Shown here in pieces: positions 53,715-60,483 of a DNA stretch of 64,000 nt; the first letter of the stretch is position 1, and each line of letters begins with the position of its first letter. The DNA comes from Roseivivax sp. GX 12232 (GTDB lineage Bacteria; Pseudomonadota; Alphaproteobacteria; Rhodobacterales; Rhodobacteraceae): assembly GCF_021272185.1 (NCBI RefSeq), contig NZ_JAJSEC010000001.1, positions 558,001 to 622,000 of the forward strand, in the 5' to 3' direction. The position numbers and the translations under genes are program-made. A model generated the notes under the pieces. It worked only from the letters and a program-made list of their open reading frames with translations. It searched no databases and was not told the DNA's origin.

Positions 53715-54125
53715 TCACCTTTCCCTGAGAAGGACGCCGATCTGGCTGCCCCTCGCTATTTCCTCGCGGCCCAAGGTGCAATAGGCGCTGTCCCGTTCCG
53801 GGTCCAGTCCGCGCTGCCGCATCAGGGCCTCGCCGCGCCTGCGCATCCGCGCCTTCTCCTCGTCCGAGGTCACGTAGTCCTCGATTTCCTCGTCGCTATA
53901 GCCCAGGCCCTTGGCCTTGCTTTCCAGCGCGTTGATCGTCGTCCAGGCCTTGAACATCCGCGCGTCGATGCTCTCGCAGCGTTTGCGCACCTGGTCGGCG
54001 ATGGCGATCATCAGGAGCGGATCGTCGATCTCGCTGACCTGGCTGAGTGGCGGTTTGCCCTGGGCCCCGGCGGCGCCCGCGCCGAAGACGGCCAGCGTGG
54101 CCACCGTCAGGATCATGCGTCGCAT
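53715..54125 (-). CDS. DUF5333 family secreted protein
   Basis: A 136-residue exported protein: signal peptide MRRMILTVATLAVFGAGAAGAQ, then a helical domain with two cysteines (VRKRCESIDARMFKAWTTIN; RDSAYCTLGREEIARGSQIG). It fits the DUF5333 family, which I recall from Rhodobacterales nuo loci. Nine bp before nuoG. Likely periplasmic; function unknown. Confidence 0.8.
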   Translation of the reverse strand: MRRMILTVATLAVFGAGAAGAQGKPPLSQVSEIDDPLLMIAIADQVRKRCESIDARMFKAWTTINALESKAKGLGYSDEEIEDYVTSDEEKARMRRRGEALMRQRGLDPERDSAYCTLGREEIARGSQIGVLLRER

Positions 54126-54268: not shown

Positions 54269-54595
54269 TCAGCCCTCCTCGATGCAGGTGCCGCGCAGGA
54301 CCAGGCGGTCGCCGTCGCGCGGCAGCGCCTCGGGCGGGGTGCCCTCGGGGATCGTGTAGTCGATCACCGAGGTGCCGAGGAAATGGATGCAGTGCTGCAT
54401 CGCCTCGTGGCGCGCCGCGGCGGCCGCGCCCGACACGCCCTTGGAGACCGGCCCGGCGGTCGCGGTGAAATTCGCCCGGTCCTTGGCCGGGGCCGAGACA
54501 TTCGCGCGGTAGAACTCGCCGTTGAAGGCCACCCGGTCGGAGCCGCAGGAGGCCAGCAGCATCGCCGCCAGGGGGATCAACACACAGGCTCGCAT
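54269..54595 (-). CDS. Small lipoprotein in the nuo operon
   Basis: A 108-residue predicted lipoprotein (signal MRACVLIPLAAMLLASC, lipobox LASC, Cys17). The mature part FNGEFYRANVSAPAKDRANFTATAGPVSK and ARHEAMQHCIHFLGTSVIDYT suggests a compact alpha-beta domain with two more cysteines. GGAG lies before the ATG. A 143-bp spacer separates it from the DUF5333 gene. No family recognised. Confidence 0.75.
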   Translation of the reverse strand: MRACVLIPLAAMLLASCGSDRVAFNGEFYRANVSAPAKDRANFTATAGPVSKGVSGAAAAARHEAMQHCIHFLGTSVIDYTIPEGTPPEALPRDGDRLVLRGTCIEEG

Positions 54596-54682
54596 CACGT
54601 CACTCCAATCGCCGCTGTCGCGGGCTGTTGTCGCCGCTCGGGCGGAGAATCTCAAGCCTTCCGGGGCCCGGCCGCCCATCGC

Positions 54683-55105
54683 TCAGAAAAGGAGCGTACC
54701 GGCCGCCAGCAGGCCCAGCAGGATCGTCATGGCCGACTGGAAGATATAGGCGAAGGTGCGCGGTCCGAACTCGTTCTTGCCGATGCCGGGCACGTAGCAG
54801 GCCACCACGCCGAGCCGCGCCAGAAGTCCGAGCGAGGCAAGCAGGTTCACCCAGAAGGGAGAGGCCCCCGCCAGCACCGCCGCCACCACCGCCGCGGCGA
54901 AGGGGCCCATGCTGTCGACCGAGTTGTGATAGCTGCGGAAAAGCCGGAAGACCGGGTCGTCGTAATTGACCGGCGGCACGGTGCCCGGCGCATGGCCCGC
55001 CTTGGAAAGCCGCGGCGCGAGCAGCGCGCTCAGCACCTGGCAGAGCACCGCGAAAAGCGCCACCGACATGAGCGCGTGGGAATAGGCGGCCAGCGTCTCG
55101 GTCAT
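54683..55105 (-). CDS. MAPEG family membrane protein
   Basis: A 140-residue four-helix membrane protein of the MAPEG family (eicosanoid/glutathione metabolism relatives). The signature FRSYHNSVDSMGPFAAAVV corresponds to the family's RxxxNxxE-like motif on helix 2, and ARLGVVACYVPGIG to helix 3. Bacterial members are largely uncharacterised. Placed between nuoF and a lipoprotein; probably co-transcribed. Confidence 0.85.
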   Translation of the reverse strand: MTETLAAYSHALMSVALFAVLCQVLSALLAPRLSKAGHAPGTVPPVNYDDPVFRLFRSYHNSVDSMGPFAAAVVAAVLAGASPFWVNLLASLGLLARLGVVACYVPGIGKNEFGPRTFAYIFQSAMTILLGLLAAGTLLF

Positions 55106-55184
55106 CGGGCGTCGTCCTTCTGTGGCAGCCGCCGGGTCGGGCCCGGCGCCGGAAAGCGGGCCCCCTGAGGGACCCGGCGGGGGA

Positions 55185-56483
55185 TCACTCGGCGGCCATC
55201 ACCGTGGCGGTGCGGCCCGAGCGCTTGTGCTTGATGCGGTCCTCGATCTCGTCGCGGAAGTTGCGGATCAGGCCCTGGATCGGCCAGGCCGCCGCATCGC
55301 CGAGCGCGCAGATCGTGTGGCCCTCGACCTGCTTGGTCACGTCGAGCAGCATGTCGATCTCCTCGACCTCGGCCTCGCCGTGGACCAGACGCTCCATCAC
55401 CCGCATCATCCAGCCGGTGCCCTCGCGGCAGGGCGTGCACTGGCCGCAGCTCTCGTGCTTGTAGAACTTCGCCAGCCGCCAGATCGCCTTGATGACGTCG
55501 GTGGACTGATCCATCACGATCACCGCCGCGGTGCCGAGACCCGACCGCTGCTCGCGCAGGTAGTCGAAGTCCATGATCGCGTCCTTCATCTCTTCGCCGC
55601 GGATGCAGGGCACGGAGGAGCCGCCGGGGATCACCGCCTTGAGGTTGTCCCAGCCGCCGCGGATGCCGCCGCAATGGGTCTCGATCAGCTCCTCGAAGGA
55701 GATCGACATGGCCTCTTCGACGACGCAGGGGTTGTTCACATGCCCCGAGATCGCGAAGACCTTGGTGCCGGCGTTGTTCGGACGCCCGAAGGAGGAGAAC
55801 CAGTCCGAGCCGCGGCGCAGGATGGTCGGCACCACTGCGATCGACTCGACGTTGTTCACCGTGGTCGGGCAGCCGTAAAGGCCCGCGCCCGCCGGGAAGG
55901 GCGGCTTCATGCGCGGCATGCCCTTCTTGCCCTCGAGGCTCTCGATCAGGGCGGTTTCCTCGCCGCAGATATAGGCCCCTGCCCCGTGGGTCAGGTAGAT
56001 GTCGAAGTCCCAGCCCGAGCCGGCGGCGTTCTTGCCGACGAGACCCGCGTCATAGGCCTCGTTGATGGCGCGCTGCAGGGCTTCCTTCTCGCGGATGTAT
56101 TCGCCGCGGATGTAGATGTAGCAGGCATGGGCCTGCATCGCGAAAGAGGCGATCAGGCAGCCCTCGATCAGCGTGTGCGGATCATGTCGCATGATCTCGC
56201 GGTCCTTGCAGGTGCCGGGCTCCGATTCGTCGGCGTTGACGACCAGATAGGCCGGGCGCCCGTCGCTTTCCTTGGGCATGAAGGACCACTTCAGCCCGGT
56301 CGGGAAGCCCGCGCCGCCGCGGCCGCGCAGACCCGAGGCCTTCATCTCCTCGACGATCCAGTCGCGCCCCTTCTTGATGATGTCGGCGGTGCCGTCCCAA
56401 TGGCCGCGCGCCTGCGCGCCCTTCAGGGAACGGTCGTGCATCCCGTAGAGGTTGGTGAAGATCCGGTCCTGATCCTGCAGCAT
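55185..56483 (-). CDS. nuoF: NADH-quinone oxidoreductase subunit F
   Basis: A 432-residue NADH- and FMN-binding subunit at the entry of complex I. NADH/FMN site [16 protein letters not shown] and [18 protein letters not shown]3 [4Fe-4S] ligands [16 protein letters not shown] plus the Cys in [12 protein letters not shown]. Length is normal. Separated from the MAPEG gene by 79 bp and from DUF5337 by 3 bp. Confidence 0.98.
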
Positions 56484-56486
56484 CTC

Positions 56487-56702
56487 TCAGTCCTTGTTCT
56501 TCTGGCGGTCCCGCCAGAGGCCATAGATCAAAAATATCGCGTATCCGAAGGCCGCCAAGGCGGCGAGATCGAAGAACGCGCGGGTGCGCAGGCTCCAGCC
56601 CATCTGCACCCCGAGGGCGGTGGCCGCGATCCAGAACAGCCCGGTTCCGGCAATGAGCAGGGCGATCGCCCGCCCGCGCCGTGCCTGGTTTTCGCTCTGC
56701 AT
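56487..56702 (-). CDS. DUF5337 family small membrane protein
   Basis: A 71-residue protein with two transmembrane helices (AIALLIAGTGLFWIAATALG and FFDLAALAAFGYAIFLIYGLW) and a charged tail RDRQKNKD. It fits the DUF5337 family, small proteins of Rhodobacterales nuo operons. Three bp from nuoF, so co-translated. It might act as a supernumerary subunit or assembly aid; no evidence either way. Confidence 0.82.
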   Translation of the reverse strand: MQSENQARRGRAIALLIAGTGLFWIAATALGVQMGWSLRTRAFFDLAALAAFGYAIFLIYGLWRDRQKNKD

Positions 56703-56720
56703 CGCGGCCTCCGGCCCGGG

Positions 56721-57584
56721 TTAGTACACGTCGCCCTTGTCGACGCGCTTGGAGAACTCGGTGTCGCCGCCCGAGGCCAGGATCTTGGCCTGCGCCACCC
56801 AGTCGTCGCGGGTGACCCGGCCCTTGAAGCCGGTGAGGTTCTGGTTGACCCAGTTGACCTCTTCCTCGGTCCAGCCGGCGATCTGGTCGAAGTGGTAGAA
56901 GCCGAACTCGTTCAGGGTCTTCTCCAGCTTCGGCCCGACGCCCTTGATCTCCTTGAGGTTGTCGGGCTTGCCGTCACGCGCGCCCGACAGCGTCTCGGGT
57001 TTGGTTTGCGGGGCCTCGGGATCGAGGCTCTGGGTGGTGCGGGCCTCCTTGTCGGCGCCGGCCTCGGCGCCATGGGCGATGGGCTGGCCCTGCGCGGGGC
57101 CCGTCTCGCCGCCCTCGCCCTTGTAGCTCCAGTTGCCCTTGCGCTCCGAGAGGTCCTTTTGTCCCGGCAGCTCCTTCGAGGGCTTGACCCCGCCGGCCTC
57201 GCTGCCGGTCTTGGTGCCGGCCTGGGCGGCGCCCGCGGCGGCCGGGGCCGCGGCGGCGGCGGCAGGCTGGGCCGCGGGGGCAGAGGGCGCCTCGGTGCTG
57301 CCCGGGGTCACCCCGGCGCTGCCCGGCGTCACGCCCGCGGTGCCCGGCGTCTTCGGCCCGCGCTCGGAGCCCGGCGTCACCTCGCCCGGGCGGGTCAGCG
57401 GGGCGCAGAACATCCAGCTGAACAGAAAGCCGAGGAACACGAAGGACAGCCCGCCCAGGAAGATCGACCCGATCCACCCGGTGCTGCCCACGACGAGCAA
57501 CATCACGAAGGTCACGAAGCCGACCCCCGCCGCAAGAGCCCAGCATCCCGTCTGGCAGCTCACCGTGTTCCGTTCTGCACTCAT
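56721..57584 (-). CDS. Membrane-anchored protein with NuoE-like C-terminal helix-hairpin-helix domain
   Basis: A 287-residue protein. Two N-terminal transmembrane helices (residues 13-60), then a low-complexity linker with heptad repeats of the type AGVTPGS and Ala/Pro runs, and finally (209-287) a domain starting LKEIKGVGPKLEKTLNEFG that has a helix-hairpin-helix GVGPKL motif. The same domain ends NuoE, encoded just upstream, at roughly three-quarters identity. It may bind or stage NuoE at the membrane. Co-transcribed within nuo. Confidence 0.82.
   Translation of the reverse strand: MSAERNTVSCQTGCWALAAGVGFVTFVMLLVVGSTGWIGSIFLGGLSFVFLGFLFSWMFCAPLTRPGEVTPGSERGPKTPGTAGVTPGSAGVTPGSTEAPSAPAAQPAAAAAAPAAAGAAQAGTKTGSEAGGVKPSKELPGQKDLSERKGNWSYKGEGGETGPAQGQPIAHGAEAGADKEARTTQSLDPEAPQTKPETLSGARDGKPDNLKEIKGVGPKLEKTLNEFGFYHFDQIAGWTEEEVNWVNQNLTGFKGRVTRDDWVAQAKILASGGDTEFSKRVDKGDVY
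57298..57360. repeat. Three 21-bp in-frame repeats in the linker of the HhH protein
   Basis: Units begin at 57298, 57319 and 57340 (CTGCCCGGGGTCACC, CTGCCCGGCGTCACG, GTGCCCGGCGTCTTC), encoding Pro/Thr/Gly-rich heptapeptides. Copy number would change linker length without shifting frame. Confidence 0.8.
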
Positions 57585-57655
57585 GTTCTCACTCCCTGTC
57601 CGTGTTATTCGGGCGACACGACCCTTTCGTCGCCCTCTTTAACACGCCCAGAAGA

Positions 57656-58774
57656 CTACGTCTTGTCCCCGGAAGCCAAGGATTTAGCCTGCGCGACCCA
57701 GTCGTCACGGCTGACCCGGCCCTTGAAGCCCTCGAGGTGGTCGTCGACCCAGGCGACCTCTTCCGGCGACCAGCCGGCGATCTGGTCGAAGTGATAGAAG
57801 CCCATCTCGTTCAGGAGCCCGGCGAGCTTCGGCCCGACGCCGCGGATGCGGGTGAGATCGTCGGCCTCGCCGCCACGCGGCTTCTCGAGCTGCTCGGGCT
57901 TGACGCCCTGCTCGGCCTCGGCGGCCTTGGCGGGGGCGGCGGCCTTCGGATGCGCGGTGCCCTCGGCGGGCGCCTCGCGGCGGTCGATGCCGGTGTCGTC
58001 CACCGGGCGGCCGCCGGCCTTCTCGGTGCCGCGGCTGTCGACCTGGGCGGTGCCGTCCTTCTTGCTGAAGTCGTGCCAGGGCGCCTCGAGTTTCACCTCG
58101 CTGCCGTCGATCCGCTTGACCGTGTCGCCGATGCTCACCGCCAGTTCGACCGAGGCGTTCTGCGGGTGCCGGTCGGCCTCGTGGTCCTTCAGCGAGGTCA
58201 GCCCCATCGCGGGCTCGGAGGCGTAGCGGCCGGTCTGCGGACCCGGCGTCGGCACCTCGCCCTTGGTGATGGCGTCGAGAATCTCGCCGAAGCGCTCGGC
58301 GGTCAGGTCCTCGTAGTAATCCTTGCCGATCTGGGCCATGGGCGCATTGGCGCAGGCGCCGAGGCATTCCACCTCTTCCCAGCTCAGCTTGCCGTCTTCG
58401 GAGGTCTCGAAGGGCTTCTTGGCGATCTTGTCCTTGCAGACCGCGATCAGGTCCTCGGCGCCGCAGATCATGCAGGAGGTCGTGCCGCAGACCTGGATAT
58501 GCGCGACCGAGCCCACCGGGGCGAGCTGGAACATGAAGTAGAAGGTCGCCACCTCGAGCGCGCGCATATAGGCCATGTCGAGCATCTGCGCGACATGTTC
58601 GATCGCCGCCCGGCTCAGCCAGCCTTCCTGCTCTTGGGCCCGCCACAGCAGCGGGATGATCGCGGAGGCCTGGCGGTCCTTCGGGAACTTGGTGATCTGC
58701 GTCTCCGCCCAGGCCTGGTTCTCGGGCGTGAAGGCGAAGCTTTCCGGTTGCTCGTGGTGCAGTCGTCTCAGCAT
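57656..58774 (-). CDS. nuoE: NADH-quinone oxidoreductase subunit E with C-terminal extension
   Basis: A 372-residue NuoE, more than twice the size of E. coli NuoE (166). Residues 1-190 are the normal thioredoxin-like [2Fe-2S] (N1a) subunit: [16 protein letters not shown] and [13 protein letters not shown] supply the four cysteines. Residues 190-300 are a charged, Ala-rich linker. Residues 306-372 form a helix-hairpin-helix-like domain ([20 protein letters not shown]) shared with the next gene. Sequence is continuous, so the extension is a genuine fusion. Confidence 0.95.
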
Positions 58775-58835
58775 GGCTATCTTTCCGTCTCTCCGGCGGC
58801 GCGGTGGCGCGCTTGGGCCGGCTGGTGTCCCGGGA

Positions 58836-59162
58836 TCAGGCCTCGGCCGCCGCGTCCGCGTCCGCCTCGGGGGCGGCGGGCTCGGCGGGCGTGCAGGGGC
58901 CGGTCTTAAGCCGGATGCCCCCGTTCGAAAGCCGCGCCGCGGCGCCGGTGTCGACCCGGAAGGCCGCCATTTCCTGCGCCTGCGCCCGGCTCAGCCCGGT
59001 CTGGATCTCGACCGCCTGGTAATCGCCCTCGTCCACGAGATCGCAGCCGATGGTCGCCATGGCGCTGTCGAAGTTCGCCACGTCGGTCTCGTCGGTGCCC
59101 TCGGGCGGGGTTTCGCAGGCCGCCAGGAGCGTCACCGCCCCCAGTGCAAACAGGCGTTTCAT
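58836..59162 (-). CDS. Small lipoprotein between nuoD and nuoE
   Basis: A 108-residue predicted lipoprotein (signal [16 protein letters not shown], lipobox LAAC, Cys16). Mature part: [41 protein letters not shown] with a pair of further cysteines (GCDL, KTGPC), and an acidic Ala/Glu tail. No family recognised. Third lipoprotein gene in this operon. Confidence 0.78.
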
Positions 59163-59262
59163 GTCAGCGTCCCTCGTTCTTCTGTCGCGGCTGTTCCGCC
59201 GCTTCTGGCGTTGCGCCCGCCTCCGGGCATGGGCCCCGCGCTGCCGCCCGGGGCCGCCGCGA

Positions 59263-60483
59263 TCAGCGGTCCACCTCCCCGAACACGATGTCGAGCGAGC
59301 CCAGCACCGCCGAGACATCGGCGAGCTGGTGACCCTTGCAGAGGTGGTCCATGGCCTGCAGATGCGCATAGCCCGGCGCGCGGATCTTGGCGCGGTACGG
59401 CCGGTTGCTGCCATCGGCGACCAGGTAGACGCCGAATTCGCCCTTCGGCGCCTCGACGCAGGCATAGACCTCGCCCTCGGGGACGTGGAAGCCCTCGGTG
59501 TAGAGCTTGAAGTGATGGATCAGCGCTTCCATCGAGGTCTTCATCTCCGACCGCTTCGGCGGGGTGACCTTGCCGCGCGCCAGGATGTCGCCCTGGTTCT
59601 CGGGCAGGCGCAGCTTCTCGATGGCCTGTTCCATGATGTGCACCGACTGGCGCATCTCTTCCATGCGGATCAGGTAGCGGTCGTAGCAGTCGCCGTTCTT
59701 GCCCACCGGGATGCGAAAGTCGAACTCGTCGTAGCATTCGTAGGGCTGGCTGCGGCGCAGGTCCCAGGCCATGCCGGAGCCGCGCACCATGACGCCCGAA
59801 AAGCCCCATTCCTGGGCCTCTTCCTGCGAGACGATGCCGATGTCGACGTTGCGCTGCTTGAAGATCCGGTTCTCGGTCAGGAGCCCGTCGATGTCGTCGA
59901 GGACGGGCATGAACTCCTTGCACCAGGTCTCCATGTCGTCGAGCAGCTCGGGCGGCAGGTCCTGGTGCACGCCGCCGGGCCGGAAGTAGGCCGCGTGCAG
60001 GCGCGCGCCCGAGGCCCGCTCGTAGAAATACATCAGCTTCTCGCGCTCTTCGAAGCCCCAGAGCGGCGGCGTCAGCGCGCCCACGTCCATGGCCTGCGTG
60101 GTGACGTTGAGAAGGTGGTTCAGAACCCGGCCGACCTCGCAGAAGAGCACCCGGATGAGCTGCGCCCGGCGCGGCACCTCGGTGCCGGTCAGCCGCTCGA
60201 TGGCCAGGCACCAGCCGTGCTCCTGGTTCATCGTGCCGACGTAGTCGAGCCGGTCGAAATAGGGCAGGTTCTGCAGGTAGGTGCGGCTTTCCATCAGCTT
60301 CTCGGTGCCGCGGTGCAGCAGCCCGATATGCGGGTCGCAGCGCTCGCAGATCTCGCCGTCGAGCTCGAGCACGAGGCGCAACACGCCGTGCGCCGCGGGG
60401 TGCTGCGGACCGAAGTTGATGTTGAAGTTGCGGATCTTCTGCTCTTGCGTCTGAGCGTCGTCGAACCCTTTGGAGCCGTCCAT
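59263..60483 (-). CDS. nuoD: NADH-quinone oxidoreductase subunit D
   Basis: A 406-residue subunit lining the quinone cavity, related to [NiFe]-hydrogenase large subunits but without metal cysteines. Landmarks: [22 protein letters not shown] with the quinone-site His, [15 protein letters not shown], and the C-terminal DIVFGEVDR. The ATG at 60483 overlaps the nuoC stop; a GTG one codon earlier is also possible. Confidence 0.98.

Follow-up and report, generated by a model that had tools for sequence, protein, structure and literature searches.

The gene that lies between nuoE and nuoF in Roseivivax sp. GX 12232 encodes a protein that, judging from its sequence, is an orthologue of protein-O, a component identified by cryo-EM in the Dinoroseobacter shibae RC-LH1 photosystem (PMC12079452), and that shares its C-terminal helix-hairpin-helix (HHH) domain with NuoE. 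The idea that we favour, with somewhat more confidence than doubt, is that O might be a resident membrane-anchored HHH adaptor of the nuo operon which has been recruited by the photosystem, and that its HHH domain would be a cytoplasmic docking module for a presumed partner. Our data add to the known protein-O that it is widespread in non-phototrophs and that its membrane rim tracks phototrophy; moreover, NuoE-HHH and membrane-anchored HHH proteins exist in other alphaproteobacterial families.

The window, that is, the whole stretch of 64,000 nucleotides analyzed here, belongs to a genome of 4.12 Mb in 38 contigs. The order on its minus strand is nuoE, O, the gene of a DUF5337 protein, and nuoF, with the following features:

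57656..58774, minus strand: nuoE, NADH-quinone oxidoreductase subunit E with a C-terminal extension (372 aa)
57659..57904, minus strand: C-terminal HHH domain of NuoE, residues 291-372 (48/65 identity to the neighbour's domain)
57582..57658, minus strand: RNA hairpin lying between the stop codon of nuoE and the start codon of O (folding energy)
56721..57584, minus strand: protein-O orthologue by sequence, with transmembrane hairpin, linker and HHH (287 aa; phmmer match to chain O of 8yy9, 1.2e-50)
57387..57584, minus strand: N-terminal transmembrane hairpin of O, residues 1-66, with Cys10, Cys14 and Cys60 (alignment with D. shibae O)
57003..57386, minus strand: Pro/Ala/Gly-rich linker of O, residues 67-194 (sequence)
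57123..57170, minus strand: linker motif L-x-G-Q-x-x-L-x-x-R-K-G-x-W-x-Y, O residues 139-154 (pattern)
56724..57002, minus strand: HHH domain of protein-O, residues 195-287 (AlphaFold2; identity to D. shibae O)
56487..56702, minus strand: small DUF5337 protein, encoded between O and nuoF (PF17272, 5.1e-26)
55185..56483, minus strand: nuoF (open reading frame, named by sequence recognition)

NuoE matches PF01257 (1.8e-51) and NF009040 (PRK12373), the NCBIfam model of NuoE with an extension, at 1.3e-168 and 561.9 bits, above the curated cut-off of 514, and does not differ notably from that family. The gap of 71 nt between nuoE and O holds a stable RNA hairpin (MFE -30.3 kcal/mol, z -4.2, reached by 0/200 shuffles), which could set the relative level of O; no Rfam match at the gathering threshold was found within 55000-60000. 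By eye, a related stem is present at loci L215 (Roseivivax halotolerans) and L216 (R. lentus). Further genes on the same strand, all between nuoF and nuoG, encode a MAPEG-family protein (54683-55105), a DUF5333 protein (53715-54125) and a short frame (54269-54601) for which Pfam gives no match at E <= 0.01. A putative small lipoprotein, recognized by eye, is encoded in the nuoD/nuoE gap (58836-59162, no Pfam match at E <= 0.01).

In a phmmer search of the PDB, the match of the window protein to the D. shibae RC-LH1 chain involves both its N- and its C-terminal stretches. The same is true for 9wqv chain a, which its depositors call a 41 kd complex I subunit; since that entry also contains a reaction centre L chain, it too is a photosystem. 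A third entry with a reaction centre L chain, 9lts, includes a "Protein LRC" of 76 residues, in which the hairpin letters of D. shibae O recur and which matches the window protein at E 0.27. According to PMC12079452, the D. shibae gene is located at nuoE/nuoF and its product has a C-terminal domain in common with NuoE; residues 8-59 alone were traced, with the HHH domain outside the traced part; Cys10 and Cys59 form a disulfide on the cytoplasmic side, and the cytoplasmic end of the hairpin contacts subunits L and H. The first-pass annotation of this locus had described the conserved duplicated domain, the membrane anchor and the L21 relatives, all of which stand, and had missed that the neighbour's family belongs to the D. 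shibae photosystem, for which its core observation was already in print in that same paper. Among the titles and the starts of abstracts of the open-access literature, no protein-O paper besides that one was found, and the accessible portion of PMC10890935, in which D. shibae transposon mutants were screened for pigment, does not mention nuo or NADH.

The genome G035 encodes an O protein of 239 residues whose first 100 and last 28 residues are the printed letters of 8yy9 chain O. Like D. shibae O, the window protein is encoded between nuoE and nuoF, has a hairpin with cysteines near positions 10 and 59/60 followed by a long linker, shares its C-terminal domain with NuoE, and ends in FSKRVDxGDVY; its hydrophobic N-terminal part, proposed earlier to anchor it in the membrane beside NuoE, indeed aligns to the solved hairpin, Cys10 and Cys60 falling on Cys10 and Cys59 of D. 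shibae. The two proteins differ in length (239 vs. 287 aa), their hairpins are identical at 19/65 positions and their HHH domains at 66/93, and D. shibae O has been seen in RC-LH1, of which the window protein is a putative component. Protein-U/protein-Y of the Rhodobacter sphaeroides RC-LH1 resemble O in their two-helix shape and place, but their sequences are quite distinct, as stated in PMC12079452.

The long Pro/Ala/Gly stretch between hairpin and HHH agrees with the flexible linker proposed before; in the alignment of O proteins it is weakly conserved, with many gaps. Its motif occurs in 35/141 O and 6/167 NuoE sequences. In the form LxGQxxLAxRKGxWxY, this O-typical motif is found in the NuoE linkers of L020, L028, L082, L121, L126 and L153, and it is present twice in 3/141 O proteins. 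An EF-hand-like DxDxDGxxEG was discarded as a general linker feature, being found in 22/141 O and 0/167 NuoE sequences and absent from the window.

As for the host, the genome of the window contains two Photo_RC matches (pufL and pufM) plus pufC on contig C36, with no pufX match; by its genes, the organism is phototrophic. The nearest named O proteins are those of R. halotolerans (67% identity in the best segment) and R. lentus (62%), whose genomes both have Photo_RC matches. For Roseivivax halodurans, a table in a review gives a core absorption at 873 nm (PMC12654162), and photosynthesis gene clusters have moved at least seven times in the family, according to PMC6052148.

The distribution of O in the family does not coincide with that of photosynthesis. 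The full O query, including its HHH domain, has a match in 272/295 family genomes, pufLM in 122/295, and a profile of the O hairpin in 191/295, namely in 89/122 genomes with and 102/173 without pufLM (no match in 33 and 71, respectively; Fisher p 0.014, not corrected for the tree); single weak matches of this profile may be false, because it is short and hydrophobic. At the loci read for 150 of the 191 hairpin-match genomes, an O protein with HHH was found in the nuo region at 134/150, that is, at 68/74 loci with and 66/76 without pufLM. In all, 141 O proteins were collected from 180 loci of 180 genomes, the 134/150 just mentioned and 7/30 from pufLM-bearing genomes without a hairpin match. 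The presence of O proteins in many genomes lacking pufLM implies that protein-O is not exclusively a photosynthesis gene, and the notion of a phototroph-only gene was abandoned on these counts.

These figures bear on the possibility that O is a dedicated photosystem subunit, an assembly factor or a quinone gate like protein-U, whose position in nuo and whose HHH domain would be historical accidents. The D. shibae structure and the proposals of its authors (PMC12079452) are in agreement with this idea, as is the hairpin signature of phototrophy described below; against it speak the hairpins and O proteins of genomes without pufLM, the retention of both cysteines in 54/66 O proteins of such genomes, and the finding that HHH is among the most conserved parts of O in the alignment. 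On balance, we consider a dedicated subunit rather unlikely.

The same cysteines were not useful as a marker of phototrophy. Both are present in 29/34 O proteins of pufC-type genomes, in 16/39 of the pufX type, in 0/2 of the remaining ones, and in the 54/66 without pufLM, which, for this reason, do not look decayed. The pufX group comprises 68/69 matching genomes, G015 and G207 matching below the family cut-off and G151 (below the cut-off and without pufLM) being excluded; the group "other" includes G015, G058 and G194, with pufC and pufX, and G008, G056, G074 and G281, with neither; at least one Cys-less row, that of G032, is doubtful and does not figure in the cysteine tests.

The two kinds of genome differ at the rim of the hairpin, the C10-C14 loop being at the cytoplasmic end for which PMC12079452 describes the contacts with L and H. 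Among O proteins with both cysteines, a Lys or Arg occurs in the three residues after Cys10 in 42/54 without but in 4/45 with pufLM (Fisher 2.6e-12), and residue 63 is Leu or Met in 32/40 with vs. 2/34 without pufLM in the first batch, and in 2/5 vs. 0/20 in the second. Nine columns of the hairpin lie above the highest value obtained in 200 label shuffles, two of these columns (4 and 6) being partly gaps. No HHH column does so (0.25 vs. 0.27, median 0.15), and two exceed the median shuffle maximum. The reduced charge is limited to the C10-C14 loop and does not concern the whole rim, since Lys or Arg in residues 61-63 is commoner with pufLM (27/45 vs. 14/54). With CQTGC and CAPL, and no Lys or Arg in the C10-C14 loop, the window protein is of the phototroph type; the other signature columns are only partly present in it, some common phototroph letters (Asn6, Gly39, Thr64) being missing.

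The contrast in the loop persists when relatedness is taken into account. On a NuoE+NuoF tree containing 97/99 both-cysteine O rows, and using all branches, a mean of 18.9 independent pairs gave 13.3 in the expected direction vs. 0.13 in the opposite one (median p 2.4e-4); for Leu at residue 63 the split was 12.1 vs. 0.1 pairs (p 4.9e-4), and three control traits were null on this tree. If only the supported branches are counted, 7 pairs are left and the outcome for the loop is marginal (4.9 vs. 0.2, median p 0.0625, range 0.031-0.625). The second batch gave 16/20 without vs. 1/5 with pufLM (p 0.023), a hold-out that is not strict because the loop pattern, first spotted among 90 initial loci, was fixed after the second batch had been seen. 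Among new named genomes the loop carries Lys or Arg in 8/13 without vs. 2/12 with pufLM (p 0.041), 32/79 named loci being hand-picked, six sample repeats and L291 (no Cys10) dropped, and 4/12 of the pufLM-bearing genomes belonging to Roseivivax. The contrast can be found within a genus: Lutimaribacter saemankumensis, with pufLM, has CQVGS, and L. pacificus, with no pufLM match, has CRQKT. When pairwise identity is regressed on NuoE/F identity, a phototroph excess appears in the hairpin (0.071) and also in HHH (0.044; 0/300 shuffles each), so that the division between the two parts is not a clean one.

Concerning the HHH domain, the copies of NuoE and of its neighbour, which had been estimated by eye to share 73% of positions, are identical at 48/65 (74%), and BLASTP aligns the two proteins at 56% identity over 114 aa (E 3e-35). 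Also the proposal that NuoE does not need this domain for its N1a cluster is supported by the solved NuoE of 8qby (239 aa), which we take to be that of Paracoccus denitrificans and which matches residues 1-234 only, with no HHH. The suggested relatives on L21 exist in the same genome, where a weaker third copy ends an L21-like frame, presumably that of ribosomal protein L21, as recognized by sequence. The NCBIfam models of L21 with a C-terminal extension (NF008915/NF008916) match the NuoE domain at 2.7e-23 and the O domain at 1.2e-19; they represent a ribosomal protein with a copy more divergent than those of NuoE and O. The same domain is present in the NCBIfam models of ribosomal L21, ribosomal S2 and a phasin.

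AlphaFold2 predicts the O domain (residues 195-287) as six helices, including the tail, with a mean pLDDT of 95.3 and a pTM of 0.86. Foldseek returned nothing at E <= 0.001 for this model; the weak look-alikes among the best 50 of 145 matches comprise NusA C-terminal domains, RadA/Rad51 and DNA polymerase iota. The NusA C-terminal domain is a protein-binding HHH-type domain; its resemblance to ours (1WCN, Foldseek prob 0.80, TM 0.47/0.59, E 0.28) is that of a weak look-alike and does not speak of homology. By sequence, eL32 (1.8e-4) and Topo V (0.0044) rank directly behind the O chains among the solved relatives, and there is weak similarity to the HHH of RadA and Pol IV as well. Pfam HHH_5 (PF14520) scores 17.5 and 14.7 bits, under its gathering cut-off of 27, which places the domain outside that family as HHH-like, and a Cdd1 match of the NuoE domain is also below the cut-off. 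A PADLOC Cas12c match to the HHH part of O (10.7 bits, E 0.017; no match for NuoE) was rejected.

Another possibility, mentioned also in the first-pass annotation, is that the domain interacts with nucleic acid, on the ribosome, on mRNA or in the nucleoid, and so brings its proteins close to translation or DNA. The HHH motif itself, the L21, S2 and phasin models, the weak sequence similarity to eL32, Topo V, RadA and Pol IV, and the weak resemblance in fold to RadA/Rad51 and Pol iota would fit this idea; the HHH_5 scores below the cut-off speak against it, as does the net charge, which is negative on average (mean -1.66 for O and -2.49 for NuoE; -3 and -4 in the window copies). We regard binding of this kind as improbable.

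Across the class, the domain was found at E <= 1e-6 in 18/190 genomes, of which 15 belong to other families; in the loci read from these, the HHH hosts recognized by eye are NuoE (four genomes), L21, and membrane-anchored, often coiled-coil proteins. The hosts in other alphaproteobacterial families indicate that neither the NuoE fusion nor the membrane-anchored HHH is confined to this one. Two loci of another alphaproteobacterial family (L298, L305) have, by eye, membrane proteins with a tandem pair of HHH domains. A different membrane-anchored HHH protein, starting with M-F-x-x-W-G-F-L, is encoded in L255 (2234-2857), L282 (2138-2782) and L283 (2090-2782). A third HHH gene follows O, making three in a row, in L006, L008, L009, L010, L022, L031 and L034; the six tested (without L006) have NCBIfam matches including the NuoE extension and the phasin PhaH, all below the cut-off, and our guess is that this gene is phasin-like.

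Such a scattering as the terminal part of NuoE, O, L21-like and coiled-coil proteins, together with NuoE/O identities that reach up to 94% inside one genome, a value that suggests occasional gene conversion, might indicate a mobile, near-neutral tail spread by fusion and gene conversion with no common function. We consider this very improbable indeed, in view of the presence of the domain in several families, of a consensus well conserved in 141 O and 140 NuoE copies, and of the five invariant and 30 nearly invariant columns in 91 sequences, a conservation inflated by the fact that most of these sequences had been retrieved by means of patterns taken from the domain.

A further question is how the two copies relate to each other. 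HHH identity is 64.0% between O copies, 66.6% between NuoE copies and 64.6% between O and NuoE of different genomes, likeness across the proteins being about the same as within them; within a genome, O-NuoE identity rises to 68.7% (121 genomes, 0/2000 random pairings). Full interchangeability is disfavoured, since the copies group in part according to their protein (nearest neighbour of O another O in 116/141, of NuoE another NuoE in 80/140), four columns differ between the copies beyond the shuffle maximum, and the best match of an O domain is its own NuoE in just 8/121 genomes (median rank 38). With pufLM, a further HHH gene lies downstream of 64/73 NuoE-HHH vs. 9/22 plain NuoE genes (p 2.6e-5); without pufLM, of 64/99 and 3/4, with no association, so that 35/99 NuoE-HHH loci there have no such gene. 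The 198/204 loci usable for this comparison are not an unbiased sample. Of the 71 genomes with neither pufLM nor a hairpin match, 70 have a NuoE match, and the 30 loci read were chosen by score, which biases them towards NuoE with HHH. Pairing on the tree gave 5.4 vs. 2.1 with pufLM (median p 0.45) and 6.2 vs. 3.1 in all genomes (median p 0.51), and a mutual dependence of the two domains was dropped.

On these grounds can be judged the possibility that the HHH of NuoE binds directly that of O, forming a contact between photosystem and complex I in phototrophs and a membrane tether elsewhere. The adjacency of the genes, the near-identity of the domains, the higher identity within genomes and the co-occurrence in genomes with pufLM speak for such binding; the last is not significant once paired on the tree and disappears without pufLM, and the within-genome excess, in which a protein's own partner seldom ranks first, could stem from common ancestry or from gene conversion. 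A direct tether between O and NuoE is conceivable, although co-occurrence gives it no support, and our overall estimate is that direct binding is doubtful; the tethering of complex I at the membrane by the pair, put forward in the first-pass annotation, is not favoured by the phyletic evidence.

We return to the resident adaptor recruited by the photosystem. This reading is favoured by the match to 8yy9_O at both ends and that to 9wqv_a, found with a reaction centre L chain, by the pufL, pufM and pufC of the genome, and by the occurrence of hairpin and O in genomes without pufLM, the Lys/Arg contrast in the loop and the conserved HHH; it is weakened by the phototroph excess in HHH, the marginal test on supported branches, the Lys/Arg excess in residues 61-63 of phototrophs, the differences between the O and NuoE copies of HHH, the phototroph letters missing from the window protein, and the lack of a tree-corrected co-occurrence and of a fold match. 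According to it, the two-helix hairpin of O would most likely occupy the place that it has in D. shibae, between LH1 and the reaction centre, with the HHH domain hanging into the cytoplasm on its long linker. O would be a photosynthesis gene neither by origin nor by use alone, being resident in the nuo operon and kept by many non-phototrophs; in phototrophs, its rim (no Lys or Arg in C10-C14, often C-x-P-L after Cys60) looks as if shaped to the photosystem. The HHH domain may be a cytoplasmic protein-docking module, whose copies in NuoE and O probably recognize the same kind of partner, and photosystem and complex I might be brought to a common factor through them. A bolder version, which we hold to be quite unlikely, describes a two-ended adaptor with a membrane socket re-tuned whenever a photosystem is gained or lost and a cytoplasmic HHH plug in common with NuoE; in phototrophs it would keep complex I and the reaction centre close together, or close to one common partner, and in non-phototrophs the socket would fit another membrane complex.

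The retention of O in many non-phototrophs, with another charge pattern at its rim, points to a probable second partner in addition to the reaction centre. In this family, a photosystem subunit is encoded in the resident operon of complex I despite the mobility of photosynthesis gene clusters. If the two-ended adaptor were real, light-made quinol could feed (reverse) NADH formation. A domain common to complex I and to a photosystem subunit offers a handle on the question whether both are coupled physically.
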